In this document: positions 8,391 to 44,962 of the stretch, piece by piece | How the letters are laid out: each line of letters opens with the position of its first letter | Position numbering within the stretch: position 1 is the stretch's first letter | Assembly: GCA_001516055.1 (NCBI GenBank) | Contig: LOEZ01000083.1 | Span: 1-60,166, forward strand | Reading direction: 5' to 3' | DNA: 60,166 nucleotides | Source: Gracilibacter sp. BRH_c7a | GTDB lineage: Bacteria; Bacillota; Desulfitobacteriia; Desulfitobacteriales; Syntrophobotulaceae | Notes under the pieces: generated by a model | Seen by the model: the letters and a program-made list of their open reading frames with translations, nothing else | Told to the model about the DNA's origin: nothing | The model's database searches: none | Program-made: the position numbers and the translations under genes

Positions 8391-8448
8391 CACGAAAATC
8401 AAAATTATACTCTTTAACCAATCTTAACAGTTAAATCTTCAAGGTTTC

Positions 8449-8614
8449 GGATAGCTCTTCATCTCGTCTAGGAAATGACAGTCTTGCACTTTTTTCAGTA
8501 CAAGCCCAGCAAAAGAACTTGGCAAAGAACTCTGCTTCGGCAGTTATTCCTTTCAGTATTCGTCATTGATTAGCCTTCTCTGAATACTTACTTTTAATAC
8601 CTGCGCCTCTATCC
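8449..8614 (-). ncRNA. Lysine riboswitch (L box)
   Basis: The minus-strand leader of lysA carries the L-box landmarks in order: GGATAGAGGCGCAG at the 5' end, AAGTA, GCCGAAG, TGCTGGGCTTGTACTG, AAGACTGTCATT and the closing GAGCTATCC. The P1 stem pairs GGATAG with CTATCC. A terminator with a T run follows at 8361-8390. Excess lysine is expected to favour termination and reduce lysA expression. The gene-free stretch 8331-8679 consists of this element, its terminator and the upstream promoter region. Confidence 0.93.
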
Positions 8615-8625
8615 AAGCTTATTAA

Positions 8626-42467: not shown

Positions 42468-43856
42468 CTACTTTGTCTTGAGGTATTCATTTATTGAAGC
42501 AGCTGCTGTTTTTCCAGCTCCCATGGCGAGAATAACAGTTGCAGCACCGGTGACAATATCGCCACCCGCGTATACACCAGGGATAGAAGTGGCCATTGTC
42601 TGTTCATCAGCTACGATATTACCCCATTTATTAAGTTCCAAGCCTGGAGTAGTAGTAGTTACCAGAGGGTTAGGACCCTGACCGATTGATACGACTACTG
42701 TTTGAACCGGAAGCTCGAATTCAGAACCTTCGATTGGAACAGGACGACGACGTCCGGAAGCATCCGGTTCTCCTAATTCATATTTAAGACAGGTCATGCT
42801 CTTAACATTACCGTTCTCATCGCCATTAATCGCAATCGGATTAGTTAGAATTTTGAATTGAATTCCTTCTTCTTCAGCATGATGAACCTCTTCAGCACGT
42901 GCCGGTAATTCATTCATAGAACGACGATAAACAATATATACATCCTTGGCTCCGAGTCTGTATGCTGTTCTGGCAGCATCCATAGCCACGTTACCTCCAC
43001 CGAGTACCGCCACTTGATCACCCACTTTAACCGGAGTAGCGTTATTCGGGAAGTCATATGCTTTCATCAGATTGGATCTGGTAAGGAATTCATTAGCAGA
43101 GTAAACACCATTTAAGTTCTCTCCAGGAATATTCATAAAGTAAGGAAGCCCAGCACCTGTTCCGAGGAATACCGCATCATATCCGTTTTCCAGCAGCTCC
43201 TGAACGGAGGTTACTTTCCCTACAACCTGATTAACAAGGATTTCTACACCCATCTCTTTCAGATTATTAATCTCTTGCTGTACGATGCTCTTAGGTAAAC
43301 GGAATTCAGGAATTCCATACATGAGAACACCGCCCGGAACATGGAGAGCTTCAAAGACAGTTACAGCATGACCTGCACGAGCCAATTCAGCAGCACAAGA
43401 AAGTCCGGCTGGGCCTGCTCCAATAATAGCTACTCTTTTGCCTGTTGAAGCTGTCTTCTCATATTTACTATTTCCATTGGCCATCTCATAATCAGCGGCA
43501 AAACGCTCCAGACGACCGATAGCAACTGGTTCCCCTTTGACACCTAGGATACATTTTGATTCACATTGACTTTCCTGAGGGCATACACGTCCGCAGATTG
43601 CGGGAAGGGTGTTGGTTTCTTTCAAGATTTTAGCCGATTCTGAGAAGTTACCCTCAGCTATTTGTTTTACGAATTTGGGGATTGCAATTCCTACAGGGCA
43701 ACCCTCAATACATTTTGCATTTTTACATTGAATGCAGCGATTCGCTTCTTCAATTGCTGTTTCTGCAGAATATCCTAAAGCAACTTCATTAAAGTTCTTG
43801 GCTCTTACTTCAGCTTCCTGACAGGGCATTTCATGACGTGGTGCTTTTGAAGCCAT
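42468..43856 (-). CDS. gltA: NfnB / GltA-type NADPH oxidoreductase large subunit
   Basis: This 462-residue protein is a homologue of the glutamate synthase small subunit and of the NfnB subunit of NADH-dependent reduced ferredoxin:NADP+ oxidoreductase. An N-terminal double [4Fe-4S] region (CIQCKNAKCIEGCPVG, ICGRVCPQESQCESKC) is followed by an FAD site (AIIGAGPAGLSCAAELARAG) and an NADP site (VAVLGGGNVAMDAARTAYR). No glutamate synthase large subunit is in view. Its pairing with the small subunit one base before its start makes NfnAB most likely, giving bifurcation between NADH, ferredoxin and NADP. Confidence 0.9.
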   Translation of the reverse strand: MASKAPRHEMPCQEAEVRAKNFNEVALGYSAETAIEEANRCIQCKNAKCIEGCPVGIAIPKFVKQIAEGNFSESAKILKETNTLPAICGRVCPQESQCESKCILGVKGEPVAIGRLERFAADYEMANGNSKYEKTASTGKRVAIIGAGPAGLSCAAELARAGHAVTVFEALHVPGGVLMYGIPEFRLPKSIVQQEINNLKEMGVEILVNQVVGKVTSVQELLENGYDAVFLGTGAGLPYFMNIPGENLNGVYSANEFLTRSNLMKAYDFPNNATPVKVGDQVAVLGGGNVAMDAARTAYRLGAKDVYIVYRRSMNELPARAEEVHHAEEEGIQFKILTNPIAINGDENGNVKSMTCLKYELGEPDASGRRRPVPIEGSEFELPVQTVVVSIGQGPNPLVTTTTPGLELNKWGNIVADEQTMATSIPGVYAGGDIVTGAATVILAMGAGKTAAASINEYLKTK

Positions 43857-43857
43857 G

Positions 43858-44703
43858 TTATTTGCCCTCCTTTCCTGACTGACAACACTTTATCTTATCA
43901 TAAGCGACAGCTTCTTCATTACGGAAGAAGGCGGAACGTTTCATAGCAAGATCAAAATCTACTTTATGACCATCGAATTCCGGTCCATCGACACAAGCGA
44001 ACTTAGTTTGTCCATCAACTTCCAGTCTGCAAGCTCCACACATCCCGGTTCCATCTACCATAATAGTATTCATACTGACTATGGTCTTAATCCCCAGCGG
44101 TTTTGTAAAATTAGCAACTGACTTCATCATGATTGCAGGACCGATAGCCCAGATACAATCTATTTTTACATCTTTATCTAAGATGGATTGGATTCCATGG
44201 GTTACAAATCCTTTAATCCCATACGAACCATCATCAGTAGCGATAACAACTTCATCACTGGCAGCTCTCATTTCCTCTTCCAGGATCAGTAAATCTTTGG
44301 ATCTTGCACCCAAAACGGAAATAACTTTATTACCTGCTTCTTTTAGAGCTCTAGCGATTGGATGAACTGGAGCAATTCCTACCCCACCTCCTACGCAGAG
44401 TACTGTTCCATAGTTCTCGATTTCTGTAGCTATCCCAAGAGGACCGACAAAATCAACAAATGAGTCTCCCTCTTGCATACGCGTAATCAGGGCAGATGAA
44501 TACCCGACCTCTTGAATAACAATCGTGATTGTTCCTTTTTCTGGATTGAAATCCATGATAGTTAGAGGAATTCGCTCAGAATCATCGTTTTGACGGACGA
44601 TAACAAACTCTCCTGGTTGTGCTTTTTTAGCTACAGCCGGTGCTTCCACTTCCAGCAAAACAATTGCCTCAGCTAGTTCTCTTCTTTTGACTACTCTGTA
44701 CAC
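43858..44703 (-). CDS. nfnA: NfnA / dihydroorotate dehydrogenase-type electron transfer subunit
   Basis: This 281-residue FAD/[2Fe-2S] protein has an N-terminal FAD domain (about 1-95; PGEFVIVRQND, RIPLTIMDFN), an NAD domain (about 100-220; VLCVGGGVGIAPVHPIARAL), and four Cys in CGACRLEVDGQTKFACVDG that bind the 2Fe-2S cluster. GTG 44703 has a spaced GGAGGAG; GTG 44709 is too close to the site. It is the first gene of nfnAB. In the SudB/NfnA family this subunit takes electrons from NADH. Confidence 0.9.
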   Translation of the reverse strand: MYRVVKRRELAEAIVLLEVEAPAVAKKAQPGEFVIVRQNDDSERIPLTIMDFNPEKGTITIVIQEVGYSSALITRMQEGDSFVDFVGPLGIATEIENYGTVLCVGGGVGIAPVHPIARALKEAGNKVISVLGARSKDLLILEEEMRAASDEVVIATDDGSYGIKGFVTHGIQSILDKDVKIDCIWAIGPAIMMKSVANFTKPLGIKTIVSMNTIMVDGTGMCGACRLEVDGQTKFACVDGPEFDGHKVDFDLAMKRSAFFRNEEAVAYDKIKCCQSGKEGK

Positions 44704-44748
44704 TTTCACTCCTCCTCCGAATTTACTAGTATTATTGCTAATTTCGCC

Positions 44749-44779
44749 ACAAATTATTGTTACGTTTGCAATAATTTGT
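44749..44779. promoter_or_regulatory. Operator-like pair in the nfnAB leader
   Basis: ACAAATTATTGT (44749-44760, plus strand) and ACAAATTATTGC (44779-44768, minus strand) form an inverted pair, with arms CACAAATTATTG and CAATAATTTGTG nine bases apart. Each half is itself an ACAA-ATTA-TTGT dyad. The pair lies downstream of the nfnAB promoter and would form a 12-bp RNA stem in the leader. A third copy is at 44862-44873. Confidence 0.6.
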
Positions 44780-44803
44780 GTTTCTATCCAAACCCCATTT
44801 TAA

Positions 44804-44833
44804 ATATTACAAATTAGTAGTTAAATCTGTCAA
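44804..44833 (-). promoter_or_regulatory. Strong sigma-A-type promoter of nfnAB
   Basis: On the minus strand a perfect -35 TTGACA (44833-44828), an 18-bp spacer and a -10 TAATAT (44809-44804) point at nfnAB. The start of transcription would be near 44797. The gene-free stretch 44704-44962 contains this promoter and three operator copies. Confidence 0.8.
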
Positions 44834-44861
44834 GTGAAAAAATTCATAATAAAAGTTTGCT

Positions 44862-44873
44862 ACAATAATTTGT
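44862..44873. promoter_or_regulatory. Third copy of the nfnAB operator
   Basis: ACAAATTATTGT on the minus strand (44873-44862), in the wider dyad TTACAA-ATTA-TTGTAG. It is about 70 bp upstream of the predicted start. Centres of the copies are about 94 and 113 bp from the downstream pair, close to whole helical turns. Confidence 0.55.
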
Positions 44874-44962
44874 AACAAATTGTCAAAATATTTAAATATT
44901 TTAATTACTTTTCTACAATTCTATATGATACCACTAGTTAACTGAAAAGTTAATACTGAAAT

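Follow-up and report, generated by a model that had tools for sequence, protein, structure and literature searches.

In the window, by which we mean the whole stretch of 60,166 nucleotides analysed here, nfnA and nfnB form an operon on the minus strand, preceded by an intergenic region of 253 bp with 24% G+C. In many anaerobes, the enzyme encoded by this operon governs exchange among NADH, NADPH and ferredoxin. The predicted nfnA promoter on the minus strand comprises TTGACA (44833-44828), an 18-bp spacer and TAATAT (44809-44804); its -35 box is perfect and its -10 box matches at only 4/6 positions. The nfnAB control region is best explained as being read from one such sigma-A-type promoter.

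We gathered nfnA homologues from 60 related genomes and compared their upstream regions. The nfnA promoter could be aligned in six relatives, namely the sister genome from the same genus (G001), two genomes from a neighbouring genus (G012 and G002), and G010, G009 and G006. The features of the locus are listed below with their positions in the window.

42468-43856, minus strand: nfnB, GltD/GltA-like NADPH subunit (NCBIfam TIGR01316 above cut-off)
43858-44709, minus strand: nfnA, FAD/NAD-binding subunit of NADH-dependent ferredoxin:NADP+ oxidoreductase, GTG start (NCBIfam PRK06222 above cut-off)
44741-44755, minus strand: imperfect leader palindrome AATTTGTGGCGAAAT with 2 mismatches; in G012 and G002 this position holds the perfect AATTCGTGACGAATT
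44749-44760, plus strand: copy 1, right arm of the leader inverted repeat, exact match ACAAATTATTGT, minus-strand reading ACAATAATTTGT; AATTYGT kept in G001, G012 and G002
44768-44779, minus strand: copy 2, left arm of the leader inverted repeat, exact match ACAAATTATTGC; ACRAATT kept in G001 and G012, ACGAATA in G002
44804-44815, minus strand: AATTTG and -10 hexamer TAATAT, invariant in six genomes
44828-44833, minus strand: -35 hexamer TTGACA, kept together with an 18-bp spacer in seven genomes, TTAACA in G001
44834-44846, minus strand: block TGAATTTTTTCAC with a Crp/Fnr-like TGA-N6-TCA core, centred at about -43, directly upstream of the -35 hexamer
44862-44873, minus strand: copy 3, exact match ACAAATTATTGT, lying about 65-76 bp before the predicted start of transcription
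44867-44881, minus strand: perfect 15-bp palindrome AATTTGTTACAAATT, centred at about -77 and overlapping copy 3; this genome has two exact AATTYGTNACRAATT sites, of which this is one

Further upstream than copy 3, the intergenic region begins with 80 bp (44882-44962) that share 94% identity with the sister genome. They contain another promoter-like pair, TTAACT-N17-TATCAT (44953-44925), and nfnAB may have two promoters. Elsewhere in the window, a lysine riboswitch lies at 8444-8619 on the minus strand (Rfam RF00168, 124 bits).

Repeats around the nfnA promoter

Three exact copies of ACAAATTATTG(T/C), also written ACAAATTATTGY, bracket the nfnA promoter. An earlier note on this DNA had described three copies around a perfect -35 promoter at distances of about 19, 94 and 113 bp; all three are present as exact copies, TTGACA was confirmed, and the start-to-start distances are 19, 94 and 113 bp. 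The clustering of the three copies is beyond chance. Among 5000 dinucleotide shuffles of the 253-bp intergenic region none contained any 11-mer three times, and one copy of the particular 11-mer occurred in 0.24% of the shuffles of the same region. The exact 12-mer is present four times in the genome (4.1 Mb), three times before nfnA, and forms one inverted pair. The observation on the 12-mer therefore stands on the exact copies, their spacings, the shuffle result and the location of three of the four genomic copies. The inverted pair in the leader is its stronger half; copy 3 is locally unusual without being conserved.

A genome-wide search for the 12-mer and its gene set, as suggested in the earlier note, revealed no regulon: the fourth exact copy lies inside a coding gene, beside a ParA-like gene. 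Copies 1 and 3 each fall together with a palindrome of the type AATTYGT-N-ACRAATT, and the AATTTGT before the -10 box is also a half-site of this palindrome. Allowing up to 2 mismatches, the palindrome was found at 82 sites in this genome and its reversed control at 136, which is no enrichment, and in related genomes nearly all sites with 1 mismatch fall within genes. An exact search for AATTYGTNACRAATT in 100 genomes yielded 6 sites. Three precede nfnA; of the remainder, one lies at the convergent 3' ends of two genes, one within a gene and one before 2-oxoacid:ferredoxin oxidoreductase genes. The last of these, a perfect AATTTGTAACAAATT in G068 (L148, 1501-1515; also L162), has a sigma-54-like promoter, TTGGCACAAATGTTGCA, about 200 bp downstream of it; it is suggestive, but as a single case it was set aside. 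A covariance model of the leader (R1) gave E values below 1e-10 only at four nfnA leaders, with two further matches at E values of 0.6 and 1, and the leader was rejected as an element reused elsewhere, strong matches being confined to nfnA.

Conservation of the region falls into three layers. The most widely kept layer is TGAATTWTTTCAC directly before TTGACAG, followed by the 18-bp spacer and by AATTTG directly before TAATAT. The second layer is the leader pair, which is kept in four genomes (the window, G001, G012 and G002) with half-sites ACRAATT/AATTYGT that change symmetrically, A to G in one and T to C in the other; G012 and G002 do not preserve the ATTG tail of the 12-mer. In the sister genome the right leader arm is the best-kept leader segment (11/12 bases). 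The third layer, the upstream copy, is kept in none of the aligned relatives: the sister genome has a degenerate form of it and the others lack it. In that genome copy 3 retains 9/12 bases and the palindrome AATTTGTTACAAATT 10/15, both less than the average of 82% for the whole intergenic region. Comparison of upstream regions in relatives thus bore out the leader pair of the earlier note and did not bear out its upstream copy, and the three copies are not conserved as a unit.

The palindrome itself recurs in relatives. In G012 and G002 the right arm together with the following bases forms the perfect 15-bp AATTCGTGACGAATT, or 19 bp in its extended form AAAATTCGTGACGAATTTT. G006 carries AATTTGAAACAATTT with 2 mismatches at 42 bp from the -35 box, compared with 41 bp in the window; a match this good would turn up by chance somewhere in the G006 upstream region with a probability of 2.5 to 3%. 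The palindromes of G012 and G002 count as one event because the two genomes are close relatives. Since the consensus was formed partly after the sites had been seen and these two palindromes share descent, the palindrome evidence is good, not overwhelming. In the nfnA leaders of genus g3 (L012-L016), a conserved GATGTATATACTTGTATAG was observed which is unrelated to the repeats of the window and is possibly another operator.

Alternative explanations of the conserved elements

The inverted pair could itself act as an RNA hairpin close to the 5' end of the nfnAB mRNA, where it would shield the transcript or adjust its translation; the upstream copy would then be a coincidence. The predicted hairpin has a 12-bp stem and a 9-base loop just after the predicted start, its z value in the window is -2.2 to -2.5, and one stem pair is compensatory (A-U / G-U / G-C). 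However, RNA folds differ among the four leaders (z against shuffles -2.5, -0.5, -1.1 and -1.1), only the leader of the window being clearly more stable than its shuffles, and in G012 and G002 other folds are preferred over the stem. Its inner five pairs are not kept, stem covariation did not exceed the shuffled control (235/500), and no Rfam family matched at the nfnA leader. The spacing of the arms is near constant, with 17-18 bp between 8-bp arms, and the sequence between them varies among the four genomes. Since the folds differ, covariation and an Rfam match were not found and the arm spacing is nearly constant, a DNA operator is likelier than an RNA switch, a comparison of four sequences that falls short of proof. 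We therefore consider the hairpin unlikely to be what the repeat is for. A terminator function of the hairpin was also set aside, as a terminator scan flagged the opposite strand only, with 3 G-C pairs.

The earlier note missed the best-conserved element, TGAATTWTTTCAC before the -35 box. The block at -43 occupies the same place in the window's sister genome, G012 and G009, is shifted by 9 bp in G010 and is degenerate in G002 and G006; the sister genome keeps 12/13 of its bases. A search with TGAATTWTTTCACTTGACAG in 31 genomes, allowing up to 3 mismatches, detected five sites that deviate at no more than one position, of which four lie at nfnA. In G025 (L096, 1501-1520), TGAATTATTTCACTTGATAG, one mismatch from the nfnA promoter block, stands before the gene of a membrane Fe-S (HdrD/EtfD-like) oxidoreductase. 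The block is a candidate activator site separate from the operator. It might even be the real control of nfnAB, bound by a Crp/Fnr-family activator in a class II position, with the 12-mer copies secondary or neutral: block and promoter are the most widely kept feature, and core and position suit such a site, for which a centre at about -41.5 is expected. Yet the Crp/Fnr-type box TATGAATTTTTTCACT, conserved in position, has 2 mismatches to TGTGA-N6-TCACA, a match that about 10% of the shuffles reach, and its TGA half is absent from G002. Crp/Fnr boxes between genes were not enriched in 0.85 Mb of this genome, and a crude motif scan of the same part, about a fifth of the genome, found no Crp/Fnr gene. 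Control by this block in place of the repeats seems to us rather doubtful, though worth keeping in view.

Upstream regions of nfnA in the Desulfitobacteriaceae, whose genera include Desulfosporosinus, offer a different origin for part of the repeat. Scoring against the sigma-H consensus RNAGGAWWW-N11/12-RNNGAATWW as quoted in PMC8510167, which covered the nfnA upstream regions except the last seven sequences, revealed near-consensus sigma-H promoters 65-90 bp before nfnA (L022, L024, L026, L029-L035, L187 and L188). The P values per sequence were 0 to 0.04 in most, and one example, GAAGGATAT-N12-ATCGAATAA, matches at 15/15 scored positions. These promoters suggest early-stationary or sporulation-linked control of nfnAB in this family. 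In G012 and G002 a degenerate form can be aligned with the leader, the left arm CACGAATT included; its P values of 0.7-0.9 are not significant. The left half-site is possibly a relic of a sigma-H -10 element. On these grounds all copies could be neutral, products of AT-rich sequence and inheritance, the left arm being a decayed sigma-H -10 (ATCGAATWA before nfnA in Desulfitobacteriaceae) and the other likeness accidental, and the poor conservation of the upstream copy would fit. Against this, three 11-mers occurred in no shuffle, sigma-H offers no explanation for the well-kept right arm, and two palindromes of one consensus stand at different places. A neutral origin of the whole set is, in our judgement, quite improbable.

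Known regulators were considered as well. Rex controls an operon including nfn in Clostridium kluyveri (PMC6405883), and the literature searched contained little on control of nfn expression outside Rex in that species. Both rex (PF06971 match at C91) and a CodY gene are encoded in this genome, and either protein might control nfnAB through degenerate sites. The best Rex match, TTATTGCAAACGTAACAA, has 2 mismatches to TTGTTA-N6-TAACAA and overlaps the leader repeat, but its P value of 0.145 is at chance level and it is not kept in relatives; the Rex pattern is at background level genome-wide. The claim that the site is not the Rex consensus is borne out, no standard Rex site in the window exceeding chance. 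For CodY, the best match to the box AATTTTCWGAAAATT in the window has 3 mismatches (P 0.155), again not above chance and not kept in relatives, and the changes to CG in G012 and G002 take the palindrome further from CodY. Matches to Fur, PerR, TnrA and OhrR boxes in the window were at chance level, and none was kept in place in relatives. Control of nfnAB by Rex or CodY would thus be very unlikely. G012 has a different Rex-like match at -198 (P 0.01). A perfect TTGTTAAAACTTTAACAA (L113, 1501-1518), the only exact Rex-like site in the genome, sits immediately before an HD-domain gene, which itself comes after two fumarate hydratase-like genes.

A proposed lineage-specific operator region and its relation to known systems

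The locus is most simply read as a small, lineage-specific operator region of an ordinary and already known type. We favour, at a probability of about 0.5, an nfnAB operator region with the half-sites ACRAATT/AATTYGT and a putative dimeric repressor at the leader sites. Perfect palindromes of one consensus argue for it, in the leader in G012 and G002 and at another place of the same region in the window. Against it stand the lack of genome-wide enrichment of the palindrome, which is odd for a regulator not encoded nearby, and the leader element itself, which is missing in G009 and different in G010 while the promoter is kept in both. The leader pair is probably functional, judged from its conservation. 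Of the operator claim in the earlier note, operator-like sites around the nfnA promoter remain, with the leader pair present in four genomes; the upstream copy, which is not kept, does not.

Under the operator reading, this genome would have an imperfect operator in its leader, where the inverted pair is joined by another half-site, as well as the perfect palindrome that lies about 77 bp before the transcription start. The leader sites would most likely be bound by a dimeric, sequence-specific regulator whose gene lies elsewhere and which would repress nfnAB by blocking transcription. The upstream palindrome may be an auxiliary site in this species only, and looping between the palindromes, if it occurs, would be an additional putative step. 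Looping is geometrically possible, as the centres of the palindromes in the window are 126 bp apart, or 12.0 turns at 10.5 bp. Since the sister genome does not retain the upstream site, looping lacks comparative support, and paired operators around the promoter were found in none of the relatives. A redox regulator of nfnAB would be suggested by the function of the enzyme. The earlier note's claims of a three-copy unit, of looping and of a redox regulator exceed the evidence.

A more far-reaching version is that a dedicated nfnAB regulator reads AATTYGT-N-ACRAATT, and that an ancestral sigma-H promoter was replaced by a sigma-A promoter with its own operators; we give it little credence. If it were true, a metabolite or redox signal would have taken over the balancing of ferredoxin and NADPH from stationary-phase control. 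The contrast with the sigma-H promoters of the Desulfitobacteriaceae suggests in any case that nfnAB control changes quickly between families. The conserved promoter and the two candidate operators are short fragments suitable for binding tests.

The predicted arrangement resembles several known systems in part. As in lac/gal-type looping repression with two operators, two palindromes bracket one promoter, with centres 126 bp apart, but here the pair is found in this genome only and is known from sequence. Rex operators are likewise palindromic and AT-rich, lie at a redox enzyme operon including nfn and have half-sites with TTGT/ACAA; however, TTGT and ACAA are ten bases apart in Rex sites and one apart here (TTGT-N-ACAA). 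The palindrome shares with the CodY box a length of 15 bp, a 7-1-7 layout and AATT ends, and the CodY gene is present, whereas its centre reads YGT-N-ACR instead of TTC-N-GAA, with 4 to 6 mismatches. The sigma-H promoters of the related Desulfitobacteriaceae also lie upstream of nfnA, and the left leader arm may retain their -10 element; the version in the window has lost AGGA and GAAT and has a sigma-A promoter instead.
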